Source of the DNA: Campylobacterales bacterium
GTDB lineage: Bacteria; Campylobacterota; Campylobacteria; Campylobacterales; Nitratiruptoraceae
Length of the DNA stretch: 32,012 nucleotides
Direction of reading: 5' to 3'
NCBI GenBank assembly: GCA_027024145.1
Contig: JALVTF010000053.1
Location: 1-32,012, forward strand
The notes under the pieces are model-generated. The model searched no databases. It saw nothing but the letters and a program-made list of their open reading frames with translations, and was not told the DNA's origin. Below are positions 1-29,625 of this stretch, piece by piece. How positions within the stretch are numbered: position 1 is the first letter of the stretch; each line of letters starts with the position of its first letter. The position numbers and the translations under genes were made by a program.

Positions 1-30
1 ACCCCTACTAAACCCCTCTCTGTTACAACA
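1..30 (-). ncRNA. putative 5' end (anti-repeat) of a tracrRNA, continuing off the left edge
   Basis: Plus strand acccctActaaacccctctctgttacaa is a degenerate CRISPR repeat (one inserted A, one internal substitution, diverged end). Its reverse complement TTGTTGTAACAGAGAGGGGTTTAGTAGGGGT lies ~6 nt downstream of a minus-strand TGCTATAAT extended -10. Confidence 0.6.
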
Positions 31-35
31 ATCCT

Positions 36-63
36 ATTATAGCACAAAGCGGATATTTTGCAA
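36..63 (-). promoter_or_regulatory. sigma70-type promoter for the putative tracrRNA
   Basis: Reverse complement reads TTGCAA-(16 nt)-TATAAT, preceded by TG (TGCTATAAT). -10 at 36-41, -35 at 58-63, AT-rich upstream. Confidence 0.6.
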
Positions 64-90
64 ATTTATAAAATTAAAAACTCTTTAACA

Positions 91-1299
91 GTTTTAAGAC
101 CCCTCTAAACCCCGCTCTGTTACAATACAGATGGCTAATTGGATACCGAAGAATCTGTTTTAAGACCCCTCTAAACCCCGCTCTGTTACAATGAAGCCAG
201 AAGGCAATGTACCGATGTTGCTGTTTTAAGACCCCTCTAAACCCCGCTCTGTTACAATAAATAGCCAAGACCAGCTCCAGCCACTTCCGTTTTAAGACCC
301 CTCTAAACCCCGCTCTGTTACAATGTTCGTTGTTCCACGTATCGAGGGCGTTCCGTTTTAAGACCCCTCTAAACCCCGCTCTGTTACAATTTGTTTGCTC
401 AAACATAAGCAGGTTCTTCAGTTTTAAGACCCCTCTAAACCCCGCTCTGTTACAATGGCGTTTTGCTCCTCAATCTGCTCCAGCCGGTTTTAAGACCCCT
501 CTAAACCCCGCTCTGTTACAATACGTCCCGCCGTCAAACTCCGTCACCATCAGTTTTAAGACCCCTCTAAACCCCGCTCTGTTACAATTCGTTTCATAGT
601 ATTTTACATCAACGTCGGGTTTTAAGACCCCTCTAAACCCCGCTCTGTTACAATTTTGACGCGAGCAGCCTTCTCCTCGCCACTGTTTTAAGACCCCTCT
701 AAACCCCGCTCTGTTACAATCAATTTTGTTGCATGATTCTTTGAAAATTCGTTTTAAGACCCCTCTAAACCCCGCTCTGTTACAATGGTTTGTATTCGCG
801 ACGCTTTTCGTAGTCGGTTTTAAGACCCCTCTAAACCCCGCTCTGTTACAATCACTGCTATTCAAGCAACACATGTCGCTTCGTTTTAAGACCCCTCTAA
901 ACCCCGCTCTGTTACAATAGATGTACCTCAATTACCTCCCTTATAAGCGTTTTAAGACCCCTCTAAACCCCGCTCTGTTACAATTCTATGTGCTGCCGAA
1001 CGGTCGCAAGGTGTGTTTTAAGACCCCTCTAAACCCCGCTCTGTTACAATCTCAATTTCTAAAATATCTTCTTCATTTTCGTTTTAAGACCCCTCTAAAC
1101 CCCGCTCTGTTACAATTCTGATCATGAATTTACGCACGCGATTGCCGTTTTAAGACCCCTCTAAACCCCGCTCTGTTACAATTTGAAAAGATGATAGGTG
1201 TGAGGCACATAGGTTTTAAGACCCCTCTAAACCCCGCTCTGTTACAATTCGTGTCGAAAAAAGTGTTCGAGATCGTGTGTTTTAAGACCCCTCTAAACC
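91..1299 (+). CRISPR. CRISPR array, 18 full repeats plus one truncated terminal repeat, 18 spacers of 30 bp; type II-C-like
   Basis: Repeat GTTTTAAGACCCCTCTAAACCCCGCTCTGTTACAAT (36 bp) starts at 91 and every 66 bp to 1213. Terminal repeat at 1279 keeps only the first 21 nt. All spacers differ and are exactly 30 bp. Confidence 0.98.
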
Positions 1300-2292: not shown

Positions 2293-4410
2293 CTACAAAA
2301 GTAGCGCTGCGAAGTGGTAGACCACAAACGCTACCGTGTAGGCAAGGATTGGTAAAAGTGCTGTTTCAAAGAGCATCCAGCGCCAGCCAAATTCGTTTTT
2401 GATAGCTGCCATGGTAGAGACGCATGGAATATAAAGCAGGATAAAGACCAGATAGCTGAGTGCCGAGAGGGGTGTGAACTGCTGGCGGATACGCTGCTGG
2501 ATCCTCGAGGGTGCCACCTCAGTTTCGAGGCTGGTGATCTGGATGGCCAAGAGATTGTGCGCAGAGCGCTCGGTAGCGACCCAGAGTGTATGCAGCTCTT
2601 TTGTGAGGTCTTCCAAGATGCTGCTTTTTGCCATCGGCTTGTGAGCAGCTTCCACTCCATAAATAGTCCCCAAAGAGCCGATGATCACCTCTTTGGCCAA
2701 AGTACCGGGGATGAGAGCCGCCACAGGCTCCCAGTGCTCGCCAAATCCCACAGGCTTGAAAATGGGTGTGATCTTTTTGGAAATCTGAGCAAGATAGGAT
2801 GTCTGCGGCGTCGCAGAAGGCGGGAGATTGATGATCCCCCACAAGATCACCGAGGCCATCACGATCACGGTGCCGGCACGCACGATGAAGTCTTTGAGCT
2901 TGGGCCACATGAGCATCCAGATGGCTCTGGCCGATGGCATATGGTAGGTGGGGAGCTCCATGAAAAAGGGTTTGGCCTGGGATGTGGGTAGTGCCTTATT
3001 GGCTATGAAACCGACGATGAAAGCTACGAGGATACCAAGGAGATAGAGCGAAAAGATGATGAGCGCCTGATGGCGCGTAAAAAAGAGAGCCGTAAAGAGA
3101 GCATAGACCGGTAGTCTCGCACTACAGCTCATAAAAGAAATCATGAGTGCAGTGATGAGGCGCTCGCGAAAAGAACTCAGCGTCCTCGTGGCATAGACTG
3201 CCGGGACGTTGCAGCCAAAGCCTACGATGAGAGCGATGAAGGCGTTACCTTTGATACCCAAAATGCCGGCTACTCTATCGAGCAAGAAGCTGACTCTGGC
3301 CATGTAGCCACTCTCTTCCAACAGCGCCATGAAAAAGTACAAAAATGCCAAAAGCGGCAAAAACGAAAGTACCAATCCCACACCACTGACGACACCATCG
3401 ACTGTGAGAGAGACGAGCCAAGACGGCAGATCCGCCATGGCAGCTCGCAGGTGTGGCGCTACGAACCCATCGAAAAAGCCGCCTACCCAATCCACAAAGG
3501 GCGTACTGCCATCGAAGGTGGTCTTGAACATCAAAAACATCACTATAAAAAAGAGCGGAATTCCAAACCACCTGTGCAATGCGATAGTGTCGATCTTGTC
3601 TGTCAGGAGCACACGATCCACCAAAGGTTTGTGGAGCACCTGCGCAAGGATCGCATCGATCTTTTGGTAGCGATCCTGGACGATGAACTCTTTGACATCC
3701 ATTCTCAGGTGTCTTTGGAGGCGTTCTCTGGCTTTGTGTGCCAGATCCACGATGGCCGGATCGAGCTCTTGCATCCTTTGGATGGCGTAGCTGTCGTTTT
3801 CCAAAAGCTTGATGGCCAAGAATCGCTTGATCTGGCACTCCAGACCCTCCATTTTGTGTACCAAAAAGGCGATCTCCTTTTCGATATGCTCCTGGTAGGG
3901 GATGAGGTGGGGGAGTTGGCACTCCTTGTAAACTTCATAGAGCCTACCAAGGAGCGTTTTGGTGCCGATGCCTTTGGATGCGATAGTGGGAATACAGGGG
4001 ATGCCGAAGATCTCTTGGAGTTTTTCCACGTCCAGTCTGTAGCCTCGCTTGCTAAACTCATCGAACATATTGAGGGCTATGACCATCGGCTTTTGCAGAT
4101 CGATGAGCTCGAGGGTGAGGTAGAGATTACGCCGTAGATCGGTGGTGTCTACCACATTGACGATGGCATCGAACCCACCGGCACAGAGATTGGAGCGGGT
4201 GACCTTCTCTTCGAGGGTATAGGGCGAGAGGGTGTAGGTGCCGGGCAGATCCACCAGGTGGAGCGTTTCGTCTTCATATGTGAATGTTACCTCCTTTTTC
4301 TCCACCGTCACGCCGGGCCAGTTGCCCACCTGTAGGTCGCTACCGGCTATGGCGTTGATGAGGGCCGTTTTTCCGACGTTGGGATTGCCTACGAAAGCCA
4401 CTTCGATCAT
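2293..4410 (-). CDS. feoB: ferrous iron transport protein B
   Basis: G1 motif GNPNVGKTALIN, GNWPGVTVEKKE, DLPGTYTLSPYTLEE, then a polytopic Gate/nucleoside-recognition domain; preceded by FeoA. Confidence 0.97.
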   Translation of the reverse strand: MIEVAFVGNPNVGKTALINAIAGSDLQVGNWPGVTVEKKEVTFTYEDETLHLVDLPGTYTLSPYTLEEKVTRSNLCAGGFDAIVNVVDTTDLRRNLYLTLELIDLQKPMVIALNMFDEFSKRGYRLDVEKLQEIFGIPCIPTIASKGIGTKTLLGRLYEVYKECQLPHLIPYQEHIEKEIAFLVHKMEGLECQIKRFLAIKLLENDSYAIQRMQELDPAIVDLAHKARERLQRHLRMDVKEFIVQDRYQKIDAILAQVLHKPLVDRVLLTDKIDTIALHRWFGIPLFFIVMFLMFKTTFDGSTPFVDWVGGFFDGFVAPHLRAAMADLPSWLVSLTVDGVVSGVGLVLSFLPLLAFLYFFMALLEESGYMARVSFLLDRVAGILGIKGNAFIALIVGFGCNVPAVYATRTLSSFRERLITALMISFMSCSARLPVYALFTALFFTRHQALIIFSLYLLGILVAFIVGFIANKALPTSQAKPFFMELPTYHMPSARAIWMLMWPKLKDFIVRAGTVIVMASVILWGIINLPPSATPQTSYLAQISKKITPIFKPVGFGEHWEPVAALIPGTLAKEVIIGSLGTIYGVEAAHKPMAKSSILEDLTKELHTLWVATERSAHNLLAIQITSLETEVAPSRIQQRIRQQFTPLSALSYLVFILLYIPCVSTMAAIKNEFGWRWMLFETALLPILAYTVAFVVYHFAALLL

Positions 4411-4652
4411 CGTTTGTCCTTGAAGCGTTCCACTACGATTTTTTGGGCTTCGCTTTTACGTATGGCGATATGGGTGTTGCCGATTTCGAGCTCCATGGGA
4501 TCGCCAAAGGGAGCGACGCGCACCACCTCTATCGGCGTGTTGGCCAAGGCACCTAATTCCATGAGGCGGTTTTTGAGCTCACCGATATCGCCTATCTCTT
4601 TGATGATACCCTTTTCTCCGGGATGCAGGTCTGATAGCTTCTTGCGGCTCAT
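4407..4652 (-). CDS. feoA: FeoA family protein
   Basis: 81 aa, SH3-like FeoA sequence (LSDLHPGEKGIIKEIGD...RLMELGALANTPIEVVRVAPFGDPMELEI); overlaps feoB by 4 bp. Confidence 0.93.
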   Translation of the reverse strand: MSRKKLSDLHPGEKGIIKEIGDIGELKNRLMELGALANTPIEVVRVAPFGDPMELEIGNTHIAIRKSEAQKIVVERFKDKR

Positions 4653-4660
4653 CCATGCTC

Positions 4661-5368
4661 CTAAATGATGTGCATATCGGGTGTGACGGGTTTTTCTATG
4701 ATCTTTTTATTTTCTATGCTTAAAACTCTATCACAAAATGGCAGCAGCGACTCGTCGTGTGTCACCATGACGATGGCGACATTTTTGTCTGTAGTGAGTT
4801 TTTTGAGCATCTTGACCACATCGATGGTGCGTTTTCTATCCAGAGCCGCTGTCGGTTCGTCTGCCAAAATGATCTGAGGGTCGTTGGCCAGGGCTCTGGC
4901 GATGGCGGCACGCTGATTTTGGCCACCTGAGAGGTGTGCTGGCATTTCGTTTGCCTTGTCTGCTATTTCGAAATACTCCAAAAGCTCCATAGCGCGCTTG
5001 CTTGCCTCTTTTTTGGGAACACCGTTGATGATGGGAAGCATCGTAACGTTTTCGAGGATGGTAAGGAAGGGGATGAGATAGTGGGCTTGGAAAATAAAGC
5101 CGATTTTCTTGCGCCGCAGAGCTCTTGGGTCTTTGATGAGCCAGTGATTATCGTAAACTTTTTCTTCCCCCAGCCATATCTGGCCGCTATCGGGCTCTAT
5201 GACGCATCCAAGCATCATAAGTAGCGTTGTCTTACCGGCTCCACTGGGGGCTACGAGGGCCACAAGCTCACCCTTTTGCACTGTAAAGCTTGCACCTTCA
5301 AAGACTCTGACGATATTGTCACCTTTGCCAAAATGTTTGTAGAGATTGTGCACCTGAATCGCTTGCAT
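4661..5368 (-). CDS. ABC transporter ATP-binding protein (MacB/LolD/DevA-like)
   Basis: Walker A APSGAGKTT, signature LSGGQNQRAAIARAL, Walker B IILADEPTAALD. Confidence 0.95.
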   Translation of the reverse strand: MQAIQVHNLYKHFGKGDNIVRVFEGASFTVQKGELVALVAPSGAGKTTLLMMLGCVIEPDSGQIWLGEEKVYDNHWLIKDPRALRRKKIGFIFQAHYLIPFLTILENVTMLPIINGVPKKEASKRAMELLEYFEIADKANEMPAHLSGGQNQRAAIARALANDPQIILADEPTAALDRKRTIDVVKMLKKLTTDKNVAIVMVTHDESLLPFCDRVLSIENKKIIEKPVTPDMHII

Positions 5369-6505
5369 CTATCCTCCGATGGCTTCTGTGGGGTCGGCCT
5401 GGAGCACTTTGCGAATGCCTGCCAAGGAAGCGAGCAGTGAAGCGATGATGACGATCGCAAAGAGCTTTTTGGCATCATCTGCTTCCAAGACCACTCTTTT
5501 TGGGAATTTATCGTAGATGAGGTGGGCGAAAATGTTGGCAAAAATGAAGGCCAAAATCCCGAGTGTCAAGGTCTCTTGGCCGATCATGCCCACGATCTTG
5601 CTATCGGGGATGCCGATGAGCTTCATGATGGTGATCTCTTTGATTTTTTCCAGTGTCATTGTATAGATGATGAGGGCGATGATGATGGTAGAGACGATGA
5701 TGAGGATGGTGGTAAACATCCCGATCTGCTTGGAAGCCATTTTGATAAAGTTTATCGATAAAATATTCTCTTCTTGCTCTTTTGTATAAACACTTTTATG
5801 AAGGTTTTTTTCTATATCTTTTGCCACCCTTTCTTTGTCGTATCCTGGCTTTACTTTTACTACAATCGTATTGACAAAGTGCGCTGGATTTTCCTCTACG
5901 CCTCTTGCACGATCGCTACGGATGCGGTTGTTGGAGTAGGAAAACTGCAGTTCTTGAGCGTCTTTGAGTGAAACAAATACCAGCGGAACGCCGCCGCTGG
6001 AGACGCTAAGGTGTGTGATGCCGACCACTTTGTAGCGGTGGCGCAAGATCGGCACCACATCGCCTACATGCAGGCCGGTTTTGTCCGATACCACGATTTC
6101 ATAATGATCATGCAAGAGGACTCTTCCCTCTACGAGCCTTTTGATAGGATCGATTTTGCCAAACGGATCGTACCCTACAGCCATAACACGCATGGGGCCT
6201 TTGGGAGTGGGCAACTGGAGGCTTTGAAATGTGAGCGGCTCTGCGGCGGCCACTCCCTCCATCGCCGCCACCACATCGCGTGTATCCTCAAAGAGTCTGG
6301 AGCTTTCGGCGATGGGACCCAGAGTCTTTTCCTGTACCACCCAAAGGTCTGCTCCCACATCTTCGATCATCGCTTTTGCATCGATGAGCATCCCTTTGTA
6401 GACTCCCATCATAATCAGCACGATCCCTAACAGCATCCCCACTCCCATAGCCGTGACGAGAAATTTACCCAAAGAGTAGCGAATGTCTTTGTATGCAAGG
6501 TTCAT
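5369..6505 (-). CDS. ABC transporter permease, FtsX/MacB/DevC-like
   Basis: 378 aa, N-terminal TM, periplasmic MacB-type domain, three C-terminal TMs; between the ATPase and HlyD genes. Confidence 0.9.
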   Translation of the reverse strand: MNLAYKDIRYSLGKFLVTAMGVGMLLGIVLIMMGVYKGMLIDAKAMIEDVGADLWVVQEKTLGPIAESSRLFEDTRDVVAAMEGVAAAEPLTFQSLQLPTPKGPMRVMAVGYDPFGKIDPIKRLVEGRVLLHDHYEIVVSDKTGLHVGDVVPILRHRYKVVGITHLSVSSGGVPLVFVSLKDAQELQFSYSNNRIRSDRARGVEENPAHFVNTIVVKVKPGYDKERVAKDIEKNLHKSVYTKEQEENILSINFIKMASKQIGMFTTILIIVSTIIIALIIYTMTLEKIKEITIMKLIGIPDSKIVGMIGQETLTLGILAFIFANIFAHLIYDKFPKRVVLEADDAKKLFAIVIIASLLASLAGIRKVLQADPTEAIGG

Positions 6506-7641
6506 CGATAGACTCGCATCCCTTCATGGAGTGTTTTTTTGTTTTTAGTAGGGATGAGGATGATGGTGTGGGCATCGATGCCTTCGACGCCGGCATACTG
6601 CTCGTCTCTTGCGATTATCCTGATGGGTTGCAGATGCGCTTTGCCGTTTGTATAGACCCACACTGCCGGTGTTTGGCCAAAATGGATGAGGCGCAAAGGG
6701 ATTTTGTAGAGATCATCGTAGCGGTGGGTGATGATTTTCACATAGGCTTGCTCGTGCAAGAAAAATGGCTTGGGAAGTGTGGCAAACGCTACGTCGATAC
6801 GCTTTTCGAGGGTGACGGGGTCGGCTTGGGGCTCGATGCGTTTGACAGAGCCGACAAAATGCTTGGCGGGGGATGAGCGCAGCGTGATAAAAGCCTTTTG
6901 GCCTGGCTGGATAGCAGTGCTGATACGCTCGTCGATATAGGTTTTGACCCATACCTCATCGGGACGCACCACCTGGAAAATGGGTTGGCCGGGAAGGAGT
7001 GTTTGTGAGATTGTGGCCTTTTTTGCCACCACGTAGCCATCGATGGGAGAGGTGATTTTGTAGCGAGAGAGCTTTGCTTTGAGAGCTTCAAGCTCTTTTT
7101 GCAACGAGGCGATTTTTTTTGATTGTGCTTGTATGGATAGCCTCTTTGCTTGTATTTGTGCCGTGATACTATCGAGTGTCGCTTTTGCTTTGTCGTATTC
7201 AGCCTGGGAGACAAAGTGGTTTTTAACCAGATGCAAGTATCTTTGATACGTTTTGTTTGCCAAAACTTTTTGCGCTATGAGGCTACCCAGCTCCTTTTTT
7301 GTAGCGTTTTGCAAGAGTTTTACCTCTTCTATCTGCTTTTGGAGAGACGCTATTTTTTGGGGCAGATCCACCGGATCAATCAGAGCGACGAGATCTCCTT
7401 TTTGTACCCATTTGCCTTCATCTATAAAGATTTTTTCTACTTTACCGCCGAGTTGAGAAGTGATATTGTAGATGTTTTTCGCCGCTATTTCTCCTACACC
7501 CGTCACCACATTATCTATGCTTCCCATGGTGGGACGGTAGGTGGCGTAGGTAATGCGTGGTTTGTAGACTTTGGCATAGAAAAGGTAGCCACCTATGGCG
7601 ACGATAGCAAAGAATACGATCCAGCCAAGAGCTTTTTTCAT
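6502..7641 (-). CDS. HlyD/MacA-family membrane fusion protein
   Basis: N-terminal TM, biotinyl-lipoyl halves (IDEGKWVQKGDLVALID; ITSPIDGYVVAKKATISQTLLPGQPIFQVV), coiled coil. Confidence 0.93.
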   Translation of the reverse strand: MKKALGWIVFFAIVAIGGYLFYAKVYKPRITYATYRPTMGSIDNVVTGVGEIAAKNIYNITSQLGGKVEKIFIDEGKWVQKGDLVALIDPVDLPQKIASLQKQIEEVKLLQNATKKELGSLIAQKVLANKTYQRYLHLVKNHFVSQAEYDKAKATLDSITAQIQAKRLSIQAQSKKIASLQKELEALKAKLSRYKITSPIDGYVVAKKATISQTLLPGQPIFQVVRPDEVWVKTYIDERISTAIQPGQKAFITLRSSPAKHFVGSVKRIEPQADPVTLEKRIDVAFATLPKPFFLHEQAYVKIITHRYDDLYKIPLRLIHFGQTPAVWVYTNGKAHLQPIRIIARDEQYAGVEGIDAHTIILIPTKNKKTLHEGMRVYR

Positions 7642-8852
7642 AATTTTCCCTCCAAGTAGCGAAGCTCGTCGATGAGCAGACTCCTTGTATAAAGGGTTTG
7701 TAGGAGTGCGAGTCTGCTTCGCAGGAGCAGATCGTCGCTATCGAGGAGCTCTATGTAGTTGCTCAGACCCTCTTTGTAGCGCGCTTGCATGATTGCCAAC
7801 GTCTCCTTTGCCGCTTCGATCTGGGCTTTTTTCGCTGCGATCGTGGCTAAGAGCCTATCGATATCGATGCGCAGTGAAGCGATACGGTTTTGGATGGTAA
7901 GTTTCGCATCTTGATGCTCGGCTATGGTTTGGAGTGTAGCGATTTTGCTTTTTTGTATCTGCGCACGCAGCTGTTTATCAAAAAGCGGCAGCGAATAGCT
8001 CAAAAAAACGTCGTTGCTATTGTATGTGGCGAGGCGGTAGATGCGCGCTAAAGAGGCTTGCAGTTCTAAGTGGCCGAATTTTTGGCGTTTTGTAGCTTGA
8101 TAGAGGCTCTTTTGCTTTTGGATGGCGAGCTTTGTCTTTTGGAGTGTGAAATTGTGCGAAAAGTCTTGGGGGAGTTTGACGGGGTGGGTAAAAATATCTT
8201 CTTGCAAAGCGAGTTTTGCCGGGAGGTGCTCACCCATGAAAAGTTCCAAGGTTTTCTTGGCCTTTGCATAGGCGGCGCGCTCTCTTTGCACAGCGTCGTG
8301 TGCGGCGATGGTGGCGGCTCGCATGCGGCTTACATCAGCCGGGGTTTTGAGGCCTTGACGCAATAAAGCCTTGGCCTGGGCGAGGTAGCTGCGTTTGGTT
8401 TGCAAATCTTTACGGCGTACCGCTATCGCCTTTTGCTCAAGTACAAGCAGTTTGTACAGCCTTTTTACCTCCAATGCCACGAGCGCTTTGGTCTCTTGCA
8501 GCGAAAGACGCGCTATTTTGCTCTCTATTTCGGCTGCTTGGAGCTGCTTGGACGTTTGACCGAAGTCGAAGAGCTTTTGTCTTAGCTCTAAAGAGACCTC
8601 GTCGGAGCTGGCATGGAGTGTCTCTTGTCTGGGCGAAAGGAGCGTCTGGTCGAAAGCATGGGAGGCTTGGAACGTGAGCTTTGGGTAGTCGGCAGATTGC
8701 ACGAGCTCTTTGTGTGCGCGGGCACTTTGGAGCTTTTGGTAAAAAATTTTGATGCGATGGTGGTGCGCTAACGTCGCATCGATGGCCTCTTGGAGCGTGA
8801 GGGCGTGGAGCAAGCAAGCGCTCATAAGAAAAAGCGTCGCTCTAAAAAACAT
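7638..8852 (-). CDS. TolC-family outer membrane efflux protein
   Basis: Signal peptide, repeated helical OEP domains, ending with YKEGLSNYIELLDSDDLLLRSRLALLQTLYTRSLLIDELRYLEG. Confidence 0.9.
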   Translation of the reverse strand: MFFRATLFLMSACLLHALTLQEAIDATLAHHHRIKIFYQKLQSARAHKELVQSADYPKLTFQASHAFDQTLLSPRQETLHASSDEVSLELRQKLFDFGQTSKQLQAAEIESKIARLSLQETKALVALEVKRLYKLLVLEQKAIAVRRKDLQTKRSYLAQAKALLRQGLKTPADVSRMRAATIAAHDAVQRERAAYAKAKKTLELFMGEHLPAKLALQEDIFTHPVKLPQDFSHNFTLQKTKLAIQKQKSLYQATKRQKFGHLELQASLARIYRLATYNSNDVFLSYSLPLFDKQLRAQIQKSKIATLQTIAEHQDAKLTIQNRIASLRIDIDRLLATIAAKKAQIEAAKETLAIMQARYKEGLSNYIELLDSDDLLLRSRLALLQTLYTRSLLIDELRYLEGKL

Positions 8853-10068
8853 GCCATCCTCCCAGATAGAGTCCCACTTCGGCTGTGATACCTATCGCAA
8901 AGACCCAGAGGATATTGAGCCGAAAGTAGCGCACCGCCACAAGGGCAAAAACGCACCAGATGAAGGCTGCTTGGGAGTTGAGGCTATACTCTCCCAACGA
9001 AAGTGCCACAAAGAAAATCATCCCCGTAAACGCGGCCAAGATAGCGCGCAACGCTTTTTGCAAAAGGACGAAGTGCTTGATCTTAGAATAGATCTCGCTC
9101 ATAAGGAGTGTATAGAAAAAGGAGGGATAGAAGATCCCGATGGTGGCGAGGATACTGCCGGGGATGCCGGTGAGCTTGTAGCCGATGAAAACCGCCGTGA
9201 TCAAAAAGGGTCCAGGAGTTACCTGGCCAAAGGCGATGCCGTCGGCGAACTCCTTGAGGCTCAGCCAATGGTGTGAGAAAACTACTTCTTGTTGTAAAAG
9301 TGGCATAATTGTCATACCATTGCCAAATGCTATTGCTCCCACTTTGAACATTGAAAAAAGAAGCTGGCCGTTTAGACTTTTATCATATAGCCCCCAAGTT
9401 AAGAGTGCGACGAAAATGGCTCCGCTGATAAATAGTCCCAAGAGTCTGTGTTGCAGCGATCCCGGTATGGAGAATGTACGGGTATCGATAGCGATTTCGT
9501 TTGCGCGAAAGAATGCAATACCTGCAATGATGGCCAAGAGGATGATGGCAAAAGCGTCAATGCGATATAGCATCGAAAGAAAGGCGAGTGCGGCTATGGT
9601 GGCGGTTTTGGGGTCTTTGACATAGCGAGCGGCGAAATCGAGAGCCACATGGATGACGATACCTACTACCATCGCTTCGAGGGCGATGAAGAGTGGATGG
9701 ACCCATCCCAAATCGGCATAATGAAAGTAGAGATACGAAAGTCCTACCATTAAAAGATACGAGGGAAGCAAAAAGGCCAGAAAGCACAGCACGGCGGCGA
9801 CAAAACCACGGAGTCTGTAGGCTACGTAGACAGCGAGATTGACGAAGATGGGACCGGGATAGAGCTGTACCATCGCAAGTCCATCGTCCACCTCCTCTTG
9901 ACTAAGCCATCCCCGCTTCACCACCAAAGCTTTGAGCTGCTCGAGCATCGCCATGCTATAGGCCGTAAGACCTATGAGGAAAAATGCAGATACGAGCTCG
10001 AAAAGGGTGGGTGCAGCGCTGTTCGAAGAGGTTTGAATAGTCGGTTGTGCTCTTTTTTGCTGCTTCAT
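8842..10068 (-). CDS. chrA: chromate transporter, ChrA family
   Basis: Two duplicated CHR domains (EVDDGLAMVQLYPGPIFVNLAVYVAYRLRGF; EFADGIAFGQVTPGPFLITAVFIGYKLTGIPGSILATIGIFYPSF). Confidence 0.92.
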   Translation of the reverse strand: MKQQKRAQPTIQTSSNSAAPTLFELVSAFFLIGLTAYSMAMLEQLKALVVKRGWLSQEEVDDGLAMVQLYPGPIFVNLAVYVAYRLRGFVAAVLCFLAFLLPSYLLMVGLSYLYFHYADLGWVHPLFIALEAMVVGIVIHVALDFAARYVKDPKTATIAALAFLSMLYRIDAFAIILLAIIAGIAFFRANEIAIDTRTFSIPGSLQHRLLGLFISGAIFVALLTWGLYDKSLNGQLLFSMFKVGAIAFGNGMTIMPLLQQEVVFSHHWLSLKEFADGIAFGQVTPGPFLITAVFIGYKLTGIPGSILATIGIFYPSFFYTLLMSEIYSKIKHFVLLQKALRAILAAFTGMIFFVALSLGEYSLNSQAAFIWCVFALVAVRYFRLNILWVFAIGITAEVGLYLGGWHVF

Positions 10069-10130
10069 CGATCCATCCCCTTCAAGCTCGCTGCACTTTG
10101 AGAGTATCCTAACTTTTTCGGGCTGTATCT

Positions 10131-11363
10131 TTACTTACGCGCTTTTCCCGCAAGATGCAGCACCTCTTCGAGCATCTTGACGGCAAAATCTGGTGGCATG
10201 TGGCCGTGGGTGTAGTGGTACTCCGCATCGAAACTGAGCTTCATGAATTTTGCCAAGGACGAATGCCATGCCAAATCGTATTCGCCGCCGTAGAGTGCGT
10301 TGGAGTAGATGAGAATCGCTTCGAATCCTCCCATATTCATGATGCAAAAGACCTCTGGGGTAAACTCCACCACTTCGTCGCTGAGATTCTCTGCTCTGGC
10401 TAAAGCCGCTGCGGCGACGTCCGCTTGATTGACGGCGACGTGTCCTAATTTTGGCTGTGCCAGGGCGTTGATGTCGCCGATAGCGTAGATGTTGTCGTAG
10501 TCGAGATGTTTCATATCGCGATCGGTGGGTACCCATCCCTTGTCGTCACCAAGACCGCTTTTGGCGATGTAGTCGGGCGCTTTGTAGGGTGGAATGATGA
10601 TAGCCAAGTCACAGGGCATCGTGCTGCCGTCGCTAAAAATGACGCTCTCTTTTGTGATTTCCACCAGCTCTTTGCCGGTTGTGAGGCTGATGCCGTGCTC
10701 TTGCATGATTTTTGCCACAGGCTCTCTGGCGTTGTCTCCCACATCTTCGAAGAAAATCTCTGATGGCGAGAAGACGCTGATGGTGCTTTTATCGCGTTTG
10801 CCTTCTTCGCGCAAGCGATGATCCATCATAAACATTACTTCGCCTATGGGGCCTTCACAGGGCGCTTTGAGATCGGGAGCATTCACTCTGTGGCCAAACT
10901 CGCTCTTGGCCGCTCCCGTGACCACCGCGCCGCCTTCGAAGGTTTTGAGGCGCTCATGGAGTCGCAACGCCTCCTTGTCGTCACAGACAGAATAGCCGTA
11001 TTCGCGGTAGCCTTTGATAGCGTCGTAGTCTTTGATGGCACCGGTGGCCAGGATGAGGTAGTCGTAGGAGAGTCTCTTGCCGTCTTTGAGGGTGAGGCTA
11101 CTTGCTTTGGGGTCGATGTGCTCTATTTCACCCTGGATGAATGTGGCGCCATGTTTTTGGAGCTGCTGTGGCAGGGGGATGTGGACTTTTTCGATGGTTT
11201 TGTCTTCGAAAGCGACTTCCGGGAGCGCAGGGCGCTCCAAGGAGTAGTCGTGACGGTCTATGACTGTAATGTCAAAATGGTCGCGGTACTTTTCGATGCG
11301 ATATAAAAAGCGCAGACCCGCAAATCCTGCTCCTACGATGACGAGGTGTTTTTTCGTTTGCAT
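10131..11363 (-). CDS. FAD-dependent pyridine nucleotide-disulfide oxidoreductase, sulfide:quinone oxidoreductase-like
   Basis: N-terminal FAD motif VIVGAGFAGLRFL, LILATGA, YAIGDINALAQPKLGHVAVNQADVAA; Cys in APCEGP and VFCIMNMGG contexts as in SQR/NDH relatives. Confidence 0.8.
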   Translation of the reverse strand: MQTKKHLVIVGAGFAGLRFLYRIEKYRDHFDITVIDRHDYSLERPALPEVAFEDKTIEKVHIPLPQQLQKHGATFIQGEIEHIDPKASSLTLKDGKRLSYDYLILATGAIKDYDAIKGYREYGYSVCDDKEALRLHERLKTFEGGAVVTGAAKSEFGHRVNAPDLKAPCEGPIGEVMFMMDHRLREEGKRDKSTISVFSPSEIFFEDVGDNAREPVAKIMQEHGISLTTGKELVEITKESVIFSDGSTMPCDLAIIIPPYKAPDYIAKSGLGDDKGWVPTDRDMKHLDYDNIYAIGDINALAQPKLGHVAVNQADVAAAALARAENLSDEVVEFTPEVFCIMNMGGFEAILIYSNALYGGEYDLAWHSSLAKFMKLSFDAEYHYTHGHMPPDFAVKMLEEVLHLAGKARK

Positions 11364-16741: not shown

Positions 16742-19700
16742 CTACATCTCTTCTATCTTTTCGATAGGGTTGGTCTTTTTGTTGTCTGGATCGGTGGCGT
16801 AGCTATAGAGCGGTACGTAGATGAGGGTGAGCAGCGTACCGATGAGCAGACCTCCGATAGCCACGTCCGCCAGAGGGCTGAGGCGCTCCAGACCCACCGC
16901 TTGCTCCAAGGCGATAGGGATCATCCCTGCGATCGTACCGAATGCCGTCATCATGACAGGGCGAAAACGCACGCGCACACTTTGAAGCGCCGCTTCGAAG
17001 GGGCGTTTGCCCTCTTTTTTGTACTCTTTGTAAAAGTCTATAAGAAGAACCGCGTTTTTGATGATGATACCAAAGAGCAGCAATAATCCCACCATGCTTG
17101 GCATACAGCTTGGCTTGTCAAAGAGCATCATCCCCCATGCCGCACCGATCATGGAAAGGGGCAGCACCAAGATCATAATAATCGCCAAGCGCACGGACTC
17201 GTAGATGGCCGTGAGGGTCATGAGCAGCAAGATAACGCCGATGGCGATCGCTTTGATCATGCGTTTGAAGCTGTCATTGAGCTGCGCGATATCTCCCTCT
17301 TGGCTGACGACGAAGCCGGTGGTGTCAAGCTTTTTGAGCTCTTTATTGGCATCCTCGGTGATGTGGGTGATGGGACGTTTGGCGCGATAGCCGTTAACGT
17401 CGATGCTATAGAGGAGTTTATCGCGCTCTATCTTGGCCGGAGTGAGCTGGTAGGTGATTTTGGCGATCTCGGCCAAAGGAATCTCACCTTGTTTAGTCTT
17501 GATGGGAAGAAGTTTCAAAGCCTGGATATTTTGCGCGTAGCGGCCTTTGAAGTAGAGGCGCACGAACTGGGTGTTCATAGAGGGGAGGTTCGCAGCCAAT
17601 GAGACCACTTGGCCTTTGAGAGGCAGCTGCATCGCCACTTGCAGCGGCGTGACGCCGTAGCTGAGGGCTTTGTTTTTGTCGATATCGATGAAGACTTCCG
17701 TGAAATCCTTGTCCCAGCTTTGGCTGATGGATGTGAGGCCTTTGACGTTGTGCAGCGCTTTGGCCACTTTATGTGCCATATCGGGGAGGTCTTCGTAGTT
17801 GCCGGATTTGATGCGCACATCAAGAGGCGCTTTGATAGTCGAGAGTGCCGTGGCGCCAAAGTCGAAAACGTCGTTCTTTTTCACGCCTGGCAGCTCTGCG
17901 ATACGGTCGCGAATCTCATCTTCGAGCTGCCAGATGCTCTTTTTGCGATGGAAGCGATCCACGGCGTTGATGGTGATGGTGGCTTCGCTGGGGAGATTCC
18001 CGCTACCAAGGCTGAGCACCCCCGCTTCGCTTCCGAAAGCCACGGAGCTGCTTTTGACCCAGGGCTGTTTGTGTAGCCACGTAAGAAACTTTTGCAGCTT
18101 CTTCTCTGCGCTGTCGACGGTTTCGTTGGCGCTGAAGGCCACTTGTGCTTTGATGATACCGGTATCCATGGGCGGCATCACATCTTTACCGATAAGCGGC
18201 ATGACGTTTTTGAGGCTGAGCACAAGGGTAAGCACCACCGCCATCGTCAGCAGCATTCTGCGCAGTGGCCAGAGTTTACCGTTGGAAAACTGCAAGACGC
18301 CGACGTAGGGACCCACGAGACGGCCGATGGTGTTTTGGTAGAGCTTTTCGAACCACTTTTCTATCTTCGTCTTGCCTGCACCCTTGCTATAGAGCCAGAC
18401 CGAGAGTCTGGGGATGAAGGTGATGGAGAGAAAGTAGCTCACCAAAAGAGCGATGATGAGCGTGGAGATGAGTGGGCGGAAGATGTGCTGCGGAAAGTCG
18501 CCTACGAACATGAGTGGAAAGATAATGGCGATAGTAGCAGCCGTTCCCGCAAAGACGGGTCCGAGCACCTCTTTGGTGCCGTGGATGATGGCATCTTGGA
18601 TGTTTTCGTGCATCTCCAAGTGGCGCTCGATATTTTCGAGCACAACCACCGCATCGTCGACGAGCATACCCAGAGCTAAGATGATGGCGGTGTAGATGAC
18701 GATGTTGAGCTCGCCGCCGCTAAGCCAAATAATGGCGATAGTGCCGAAAAAGACGAGAGGAATGGAGATACCGGCTGCGATGATGGCACGGAAATTCCCC
18801 AAGAAAAGCAGCAACACCAAGAGCGTATAGACGATGGCATCACGCAACGCTTCGAGCATGTTTTTATTGGCGGTTTCGATCAGGTCGCGCTGGGTGTCGG
18901 CTATCTGAAAATCGATGTTGGGGTAGAGTTTGGCAAGCTTTTTAATCTCGGCGCGTGCAGCATCGCTCACATCCAGCACACTACCACCGGGAGCGCGCTG
19001 GATAGAAAGTGCGATAGCCTGCTTGCCGTTGCCTAAATACCCGCTGGTGCGCTTTTTGTAGCTCCAGCTGACTTTTGCGATGTCTCTTAGCTTGACGTTT
19101 GGCAAGATAGAGAGGTTTTTGAGTTTTTCTATATTGTCCTTTTCGCCATAGTAGGTGATGGTGTAGAAATCTTCGTCGCTTTTGGTAAAGCCGATGGGGA
19201 TGTCTTTATTAAGTGCAAAAAGCGCTTTGGCGAGCGCATCGAAGCTGATGCCATACTTCTTGGCTTTATAAGGATCCACTTCGATATTGATGGCGCTTTG
19301 GTAGCCGCCGAAGACCTCTACGTTTCCGATGTGCGGGTTTGCCAAGAGGTAGGGTTTGATATGCGAATCTGCGATTTTGCGAATCTCGGCGAGGCTGATA
19401 GCATCATTTTTGGGACTGAGTGCCACCACCTCCACGGGTAGTGTGAAGTCACCCACGGTGTAGATGGAGGGGTTGGCGTTTTTGGGGAGTTTGCCTTTTG
19501 CGATGGAGAGGGCGTTGGCCACGTCCACTGCTGCTGGCTCGAGGCCTTTTTTATATTCAAACTCCGCCTTGACGATGGAGAAGTTGGCCACGTTGACGCT
19601 GGAGACGTCACGCACGAGGCTGATGCGGCTGATCTCCTCTTCGATGGGCTTGCTCACGGTGTTGGCGATCACTTCGGCCGTGGCACCGGGCAGAGAGGTG

Positions 19701-19837
19701 ATCACCACCACCTGCGGGCGGTTGGCATCGGGAAAAAGGTTTTTAGGAAGAGCCTTGAGGCCTATGATCCCCATGACGAAAAAGCCGACAATGAGTGCGA
19801 AGAGCAGATAGGGACGTTTGTAAAAGTATGCAAACAT
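16742..19837 (-). CDS. RND efflux transporter permease (AcrB/MexB/HAE-1-like)
   Basis: 1031 aa; ALPKNLFPDANRPQVVVITSLPGATAEVIANTVSKPIEEEI, GMLVDDAVVVLENIERH, and C-terminal FRPVMMTAFGTIAGMIPIAL. Confidence 0.97.
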   Translation of the reverse strand: MFAYFYKRPYLLFALIVGFFVMGIIGLKALPKNLFPDANRPQVVVITSLPGATAEVIANTVSKPIEEEISRISLVRDVSSVNVANFSIVKAEFEYKKGLEPAAVDVANALSIAKGKLPKNANPSIYTVGDFTLPVEVVALSPKNDAISLAEIRKIADSHIKPYLLANPHIGNVEVFGGYQSAINIEVDPYKAKKYGISFDALAKALFALNKDIPIGFTKSDEDFYTITYYGEKDNIEKLKNLSILPNVKLRDIAKVSWSYKKRTSGYLGNGKQAIALSIQRAPGGSVLDVSDAARAEIKKLAKLYPNIDFQIADTQRDLIETANKNMLEALRDAIVYTLLVLLLFLGNFRAIIAAGISIPLVFFGTIAIIWLSGGELNIVIYTAIILALGMLVDDAVVVLENIERHLEMHENIQDAIIHGTKEVLGPVFAGTAATIAIIFPLMFVGDFPQHIFRPLISTLIIALLVSYFLSITFIPRLSVWLYSKGAGKTKIEKWFEKLYQNTIGRLVGPYVGVLQFSNGKLWPLRRMLLTMAVVLTLVLSLKNVMPLIGKDVMPPMDTGIIKAQVAFSANETVDSAEKKLQKFLTWLHKQPWVKSSSVAFGSEAGVLSLGSGNLPSEATITINAVDRFHRKKSIWQLEDEIRDRIAELPGVKKNDVFDFGATALSTIKAPLDVRIKSGNYEDLPDMAHKVAKALHNVKGLTSISQSWDKDFTEVFIDIDKNKALSYGVTPLQVAMQLPLKGQVVSLAANLPSMNTQFVRLYFKGRYAQNIQALKLLPIKTKQGEIPLAEIAKITYQLTPAKIERDKLLYSIDVNGYRAKRPITHITEDANKELKKLDTTGFVVSQEGDIAQLNDSFKRMIKAIAIGVILLLMTLTAIYESVRLAIIMILVLPLSMIGAAWGMMLFDKPSCMPSMVGLLLLFGIIIKNAVLLIDFYKEYKKEGKRPFEAALQSVRVRFRPVMMTAFGTIAGMIPIALEQAVGLERLSPLADVAIGGLLIGTLLTLIYVPLYSYATDPDNKKTNPIEKIEEM

Positions 19838-28669: not shown

Positions 28670-28745
28670 GCGGGAGTAGCTCAGGGGCTAGAGCACCACC
28701 TTGCCAAGGTGGGGGTCGCGGGTTCGAATCCCGTCTCCCGCTCCA
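28670..28745 (+). tRNA. tRNA-Gly (GCC)
   Basis: Acceptor GCGGGAG/CTCCCGC, anticodon loop CTTGCCAAG, GGTTCGAATCC T-loop, encoded CCA. Confidence 0.97.
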
Positions 28746-28808
28746 GATATATACGAAACGACCCCTCTAATAACCTATCGGTGCCCACATCGATAACATT
28801 TTACCTTC

Positions 28809-28895
28809 GCCCGGGTGGCGGAATTGGTAGACGCAAGGGACTTAAAATCCCTCGGAGGTTTCTCCGTGCCGGTTCAAGTCCGGCCTCGGGCACCA
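28809..28895 (+). tRNA. tRNA-Leu (TAA)
   Basis: GCCCGGG...CTCGGGC, anticodon loop ACTTAAAAT, long variable arm, encoded CCA. Confidence 0.97.
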
Positions 28896-28899
28896 AGAC

Positions 28900-28973
28900 G
28901 GCGCCATAGCCAAGTGGTAAGGCAGGAGCCTGCAAAGCTCTGATCCCCGGTTCGAATCCGGGTGGCGCCTCCA
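28900..28973 (+). tRNA. tRNA-Cys (GCA)
   Basis: GGCGCCA...TGGCGCC, anticodon GCA in CCTGCAAAG, encoded CCA. Confidence 0.97.
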
Positions 28974-28988
28974 TCCATTGCTACCTCA

Positions 28989-29080
28989 GGGGAGGTGGCG
29001 GAGCTGGTTGAACGCACCGGTCTTGAAAACCGGCGTAGGTGATGAGCCTACCGTGGGTTCGAATCCCACCCTCCCCGCCA
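28989..29080 (+). tRNA. tRNA-Ser (TGA)
   Basis: GGGGAGG...CCTCCCC, anticodon loop TCTTGAAAA, long variable arm, encoded CCA. Confidence 0.96.
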
Positions 29081-29101
29081 CTGCACACTACCGCGACTTT
29101 T

Positions 29102-29192
29102 GGAGAGATGGCCGAGTGGTTGAAGGCGCACGCCTGGAACGCGTGTAAGGGTTAACAGCCCTTCGTGGGTTCGAATCCCACTCTCTCCGCCA
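29102..29192 (+). tRNA. tRNA-Ser (GGA)
   Basis: GGAGAGA...TCTCTCC, anticodon loop CTGGAAC, long variable arm, encoded CCA. Confidence 0.96.
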
Positions 29193-29516: not shown

Positions 29517-29625
29517 GAATGCTCCGTTCAGACCCGTGCGACGGGCGCAAGCGGCAACGCTTCAGGGCGGGAACGCAGCAGAGCACTGCTTGTGTCCGGG
29601 CGCCGCGGGGATCTGGGCGGAGTCT
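29517..29625 (+). ncRNA. ffs: bacterial small signal recognition particle RNA (4.5S)
   Basis: Long imperfect hairpin CTCCGTTCAGACCCG...CGGGGATCTGGGCGGAG with apical CAGGGCGGGAACGCAGCAG (SRP domain IV-like). TATAAT at 29472-29477 upstream. Confidence 0.8.

Follow-up and report, generated by a model that had tools for sequence, protein, structure and literature searches.

Type II-C CRISPR arrays have been described as running opposite to the cas genes (PMC3936727, PMC6737040), and new spacers as being acquired at their transcribed 3' end (PMC12080349). A study from 2025 suspects that II-C subgroups differ in the end at which they acquire spacers, with none named in the accessible part of that text (PMC12638026). 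Orientation tools disagree most on type II-C. In Campylobacter jejuni, transcription starts inside spacers and trimming by RNase III were measured (PMC3656092).

The locus described here resembles the system of PMC3656092 in having cas9, cas1 and cas2 only, a tracrRNA, and a -10-like box at the repeat end, which would start each crRNA. In that system, however, the array and the tracrRNA share one strand and run towards cas2, whereas here the two diverge from a common leader. Acquisition at the 3' end is reported for systems of that type, against the 5' end that we infer for the present lineage. With type II-A (Streptococcus) the locus shares an array that runs on the same strand as its cas genes and a leader before the first transcribed repeat, but it has no csn2, and its repeat ends in a promoter-like TACAAT rather than an AAAAC-type end. 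The type II-C system of Riemerella anatipestifer (He et al. 2018, PMC6008519) likewise has three cas genes; unlike the present locus, it has 47-nt repeats without an internal promoter (PMC5006608) and a tracrRNA upstream of cas9.

The stretch analysed, hereafter the window, is the entire 32,012-nt contig C53 of a Campylobacterales genome. We propose, with a probability of roughly 85%, that window positions 1–63 are the start of a leftward type II-C tracrRNA gene, that the array is read rightward, inverted with respect to the usual II-C layout, and that new spacers enter the first transcribed repeat. The features are as follows.

1–30, minus strand: 5' part of the tracrRNA anti-repeat, which forms the duplex with the repeat; truncated by the contig edge and continued on contig C83
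31–90, no strand assigned: AT-rich leader, common to the minus-strand tracrRNA promoter and the plus-strand array; the end adjoining repeat 1 is conserved in the lineage
36–44, minus strand: extended -10 box TGCTATAAT of the predicted tracrRNA promoter (promoter scan 10/12, with TG; predicted start near 29)
58–63, minus strand: -35 box TTGCAA of the same promoter, 16 nt from TATAAT
91–1248, plus strand (crRNA sense): CRISPR array; its 18 intact repeats are 36 nt long (GTTTTAAGACCCCTCTAAACCCCGCTCTGTTACAAT), and 17 of the 18 spacers lie here
1249–1278, plus strand: the 18th (oldest) spacer
1279–1299, plus strand: decayed terminal (nineteenth) repeat, its first 21 nt intact as the crRNA handle of the oldest spacer
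L004:12440–12478 (contig C83): the whole anti-repeat

A tracrRNA gene cut by the contig edge

The initial annotation had claimed that the edge of the window cuts a putative tracrRNA, with a promoter followed by an anti-repeat on the minus strand. On that strand TTGCAA (63–58) is followed after 16 nt by TATAAT (41–36), which is preceded by TG, and then by the anti-repeat, from about position 29 down to 1. A promoter scan matched at this place, against a mean of 0.3 matches in shuffles, and most relatives have -10-like boxes at the equivalent position. The duplex between the 30-nt stretch inside the window and the repeat was predicted at -45.4 kcal/mol; the best other duplex, among 10,190 other 46-nt windows on both strands, reached -31.5 kcal/mol. 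The complementarity noted at first reading is thus real and far beyond chance.

The remainder of the gene was found on contig C83, one end of which is identical, base for base, to window positions 1–127. These common 127 bases comprise the leader, repeat 1 and one base of spacer 1. An assembler run with k=127 leaves a 127-base overlap at a fork, and a fork directly after repeat 1 could fit a population that carries alternative first (newest) spacers. C53 and C83 are joined through this assembly overlap, and the gene order is the same in every relative. On C83, cas9, cas1 and cas2 overlap or adjoin one another and are followed by the tracrRNA on the opposite strand, so that the type II cas genes predicted to the left of position 1 are all present. 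By profile match they are cas9 (TIGR01865, E=6.6e-126; 1131 aa), cas1 (TIGR03639, E=1.6e-72; 304 aa) and cas2 (TIGR01573, E=7.5e-19). Neither csn2 nor cas4 was found at the C83 locus; the interval from cas9 to the tracrRNA holds no further gene, and no ORF occupies the place of csn2, the mark of type II-A. The gene content is thus that of type II-C, and the Cas1 is nested among the II-C Cas1 proteins of the class.

With the C83 sequence added, the anti-repeat pairs with 35 of the 36 repeat bases at -55.9 kcal/mol, with one mismatch and one bulge, the imperfect pairing that had been expected. It is followed, on the minus strand, by a nexus-like hairpin (GGCTGTC-TTT-GACAGCC), also foreseen, and by a second, stable hairpin (GGTCTATC-TTCG-GATAGACC). 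The prediction of a terminator held only in part: the last hairpin is there, but in place of a canonical U-run it is followed by TCCCCTCTTT, a weak T tract that adjoins the cas2 stop, and a scan for Rho-independent terminators was empty. A search with the Rfam 15 covariance models, up to E=10, returned no tracrRNA family. The locus has these features of a type II tracrRNA gene: a predicted promoter before the anti-repeat, a structured 3' tail with a nexus-like hairpin, and an anti-repeat complementary to the repeat of its own locus.

We searched 399 genomes of the order for Cas9 homologues, detected them in 18 and read their loci. Fourteen Campylobacterales loci share the order cas9-cas1-cas2, tracrRNA (minus), leader, array (plus). 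Across these 14 loci, changes on both sides were seen in 12 of 35 pairs of the repeat:anti-repeat duplex and in all eight pairs of the last hairpin, and the covariation score was 0.392, whereas shuffles scored 0.145 and slid partners no more than 0.092. The alignment fitted the nexus poorly (40% of cells paired), while each sequence folds a nexus hairpin of its own. The RNA is conserved, with covariation, between loci whose Cas9 identity falls to 34%. This conservation, together with the covariation of repeat and anti-repeat, confirms the tracrRNA, and we regard it as near certain, from the sequences compared, that the window edge cuts a real type II-C tracrRNA gene, in itself an ordinary one.

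In six relatives (L034, L036, L037, L039, L040 and L042) the 3' end of the repeat is copied within the nexus stem-loop (GTTACAAC or GTTATAAC). The copy tracks the repeat's own base change in relatives and is absent from the species of the window. A switch-like role, in which a nexus copying the repeat 3' end CTGTTACAAC competes for the anti-repeat, fits several relatives; it does not fit the focal sequence and was dropped.

The array and its reading strand

The first full repeat starts at position 91, a small correction to the initial annotation. Spacers are 30 nt long, which gives the array a period of 66 nt, and each repeat ends in the extended -10-like sequence TGTTACAAT; this end reads TACAAT here and TATAAT in some relatives. 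The terminal repeat has lost its last 15 nt (1300–1314), including the -10 box. On the tracrRNA side of the arrays of this lineage the leader end is conserved, as TTTAATR or TTTATCG before GTTTTAA; in the window it is TTTAACA.

No convincing protospacers were found for the window's own spacers among phages and plasmids or, for four of the spacers, among viral contigs. The arrays of L042, L041, L036, L045 and L047 gave either no protospacers or weak matches (unlikely hosts or low significance). L035 is a species of the same genus; four spacers in its array (original strand 2899–3717) match Nitratiruptor phages (NrS-1 to NrS-4 or NrS-5) with 1–4 mismatches. These matches also hint that the genus itself is Nitratiruptor. 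In crRNA sense, the 3' flanks of these protospacers read ctattg or caatag; aagata; caaagg or caaaag; and caaaag, while the 5' flanks have no pattern. All mismatches to NrS-1 and NrS-4 lie outside the last 12 nt. The four protospacers tentatively suggest an NARWNR-like PAM on the 3' side for this Cas9 group. The likeness of the 3' flanks and, for NrS-1 and NrS-4, the mismatch-free last 12 nt fit a type II PAM and seed on the 3' side of the crRNA, and hence a plus-strand crRNA, although the protospacers number only four.

Two other readings of positions 1–30 were weighed. A repeat and an anti-repeat cannot by themselves reveal their strand, so the tracrRNA could lie on the plus strand and the crRNA on the minus strand. 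We consider this very improbable: only on the minus strand do a promoter and hairpins lie on either side of the anti-repeat in the expected order, the TANAAT end of the repeat matches the in-repeat promoter of C. jejuni (PMC3656092), and the PAM-like flanks and seed side in L035 fit a plus-strand crRNA. Nor, in all likelihood, are positions 1–30 merely a decayed repeat at the leader side of the array, with no tracrRNA gene. They do resemble the repeat in direct orientation (79–86% over 29 nt), and another repeat of a longer array had been named at the outset as what they might prove to be; yet no further repeats lie to their left, their spacing to repeat 1 is not array-like, and a promoter and two hairpins stand in correct order on the minus strand, conserved with covariation across the divergent loci described above. 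As to how the array came to be turned, the anti-repeat, directly oriented relative to the present array, may have been the founder from which a new array grew.

The tracrRNA gene read leftward and the array read rightward together suggest how the locus would operate. The tracrRNA would start from TTGCAA-16-TATAAT and comprise an anti-repeat of about 38 nt, the nexus-like hairpin and the second hairpin, ending beside the cas2 stop. The array would be transcribed rightward, probably from one promoter inside each repeat, each starting the next crRNA, by analogy with C. jejuni. The spacer-repeat transcript would pair with the anti-repeat, supplied by the divergent promoter within the leader; host RNase III would trim the duplex, and Cas9 would use the dual RNA. 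Cas1-Cas2 would still add spacers at the cas2/leader side, which here is the first transcribed repeat. The last repeat's promoter would direct transcription outward from the array, and it is this part that has decayed here. Transcription, processing and acquisition end are in each case deduced for the focal locus from its sequence.

Array orientation across the class

That the tracrRNA diverges from the array had been stated in the initial annotation, and is borne out (array plus, tracrRNA minus); the divergence is itself the unusual feature, which that annotation missed. The array lies on the cas strand, and not opposite the cas operon as in the usual II-C layout. We surveyed the class, in which type II Cas1 was present in 87 of 397 genomes, and read the surrounding loci. 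Our survey yielded 75 oriented arrays: 61 were usual (towards cas2, with crRNA sense opposite to the cas genes), 12 were flipped and two were II-A-like. Many of the usual arrays have a tracrRNA anti-repeat on the crRNA-sense strand between cas2 and the array, and in loci without an anti-repeat there the crRNA sense was taken from the TANAAT-type end of the repeat alone. Loci in the survey whose repeats are of C. jejuni type (e.g., L082) likewise have a minus-strand tracrRNA beside cas2. In the 12 flipped loci the array is on the cas strand and diverges from the tracrRNA, and two more loci (L039 and L046) read likewise.

In the Cas1 tree (IQ-TREE, 87 rows) the flipped loci all fall on one side of a single branch (support 99/93; recovered in 100% of the bootstrap trees), a group that takes in L039 and L046 as well. 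The sisters of this branch, L048 and L050, have arrays in the usual II-C orientation; their Cas9 is about 33% identical to the focal one and their tracrRNA is in the same place and on the same strand. The focal repeat is plainly akin to that of L048, GTTTTAAGACCCCTGCAAACCCCTTTGTGCTAAAAT, which argues that it was the array that turned round, and not the tracrRNA. The flipped loci thus appear, with good support, to be one II-C branch whose array was inverted relative to the cas genes, the tracrRNA and the leader. The literature searched, outside which most subscription papers lay, held no description of a flipped II-C subgroup. Two Campylobacterales loci, L093 and L109, have II-A-like repeats (GTTTGAGAGTTGTG...). 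In both, the array lies about 1 kb after cas1, and their Cas1 forms a branch of its own with good support.

The end that gains spacers

Decay of repeats normally marks the old end of an array. The repeat on the cas side is intact in both orientations, with one mismatch in total in each group; in the flipped arrays, the leader-side repeat is intact in nine of ten and has one mismatch in the tenth. At the cas-distal end, the terminal repeats of the flipped arrays have no mismatches in the inner half and 41 in the outer half (6/10 arrays decayed), and those of the usual arrays have 10 and 143, respectively (about 28–31 of 59 arrays); the search let either half of a terminal copy be the better kept, and copies decayed throughout would be missed by these counts. 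Indirect signs, namely unbroken repeats beside the leader, a leader end conserved in the flipped lineage, and decay limited to the cas-distal terminal repeat, point to the cas2/tracrRNA side as the growing end in all of them. The flipped lineage is therefore likely to acquire spacers at the crRNA-5' repeat, the first transcribed, as in type II-A, while apparently keeping promoters of II-C type in its repeats. A direct test of polarity by shared spacers found none between the surveyed genomes.

The locus might otherwise be an ordinary one in which the direction of the array is a trivial rearrangement, with spacers still added at the crRNA-3' (cas-distal) end. A single inversion could give a flipped array, and published II-C systems are described as 3'-end acquirers (PMC12080349, PMC12638026). 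The conserved flank on the tracrRNA side and the terminal decay at the opposite end speak against such growth, which we judge improbable, if less so than either alternative reading of positions 1–30. Acquisition at the first transcribed repeat is the reading we retain.

Where the orientation is usual, the half that decays corresponds to the crRNA-5' portion of the "extra" repeat, and its decay has been explained as silencing of an extraneous crRNA (PMC12080349). Where the array is flipped, this half, physically the same one, is the promoter portion. Both cases would be covered if the inner half of the terminal repeat is all that the oldest spacer requires, this half being its promoter in usual arrays and its crRNA handle in flipped ones. 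Selection on the terminal repeat could differ between the two groups. We lean towards a scheme in which this II-C lineage inverted its array against a fixed leader, cas operon and tracrRNA; Cas1-Cas2 would insert at the crRNA-5' repeat, the spacer's PAM side would point away from the leader, and the in-repeat promoters would be kept. Outer-half decay would then follow position, affecting the half that the oldest spacer does not need, rather than selection against extraneous crRNA.

The flipped lineage thereby offers a concrete candidate, bounded on the tree, for a II-C subgroup with a different acquisition end. Because its sister has the usual orientation, exchanges between the two can address which component flipped: the repeat, the leader or Cas1-Cas2. 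For the proposal that extraneous crRNA is silenced through mutation of terminal repeats, the lineage serves as a natural control as well.

To the right of the array, Pfam searches of eight proteins (window 2293–11363 and 16742–19837) found no defence genes; they identified feoB, an export cluster of MacB/HlyD/TolC type, a chromate transporter, an oxidoreductase and an AcrB-type pump. Farther on, Rfam gathering hits mark five clustered tRNA genes, followed by a small SRP RNA (28670–29189 and 29525–29622).
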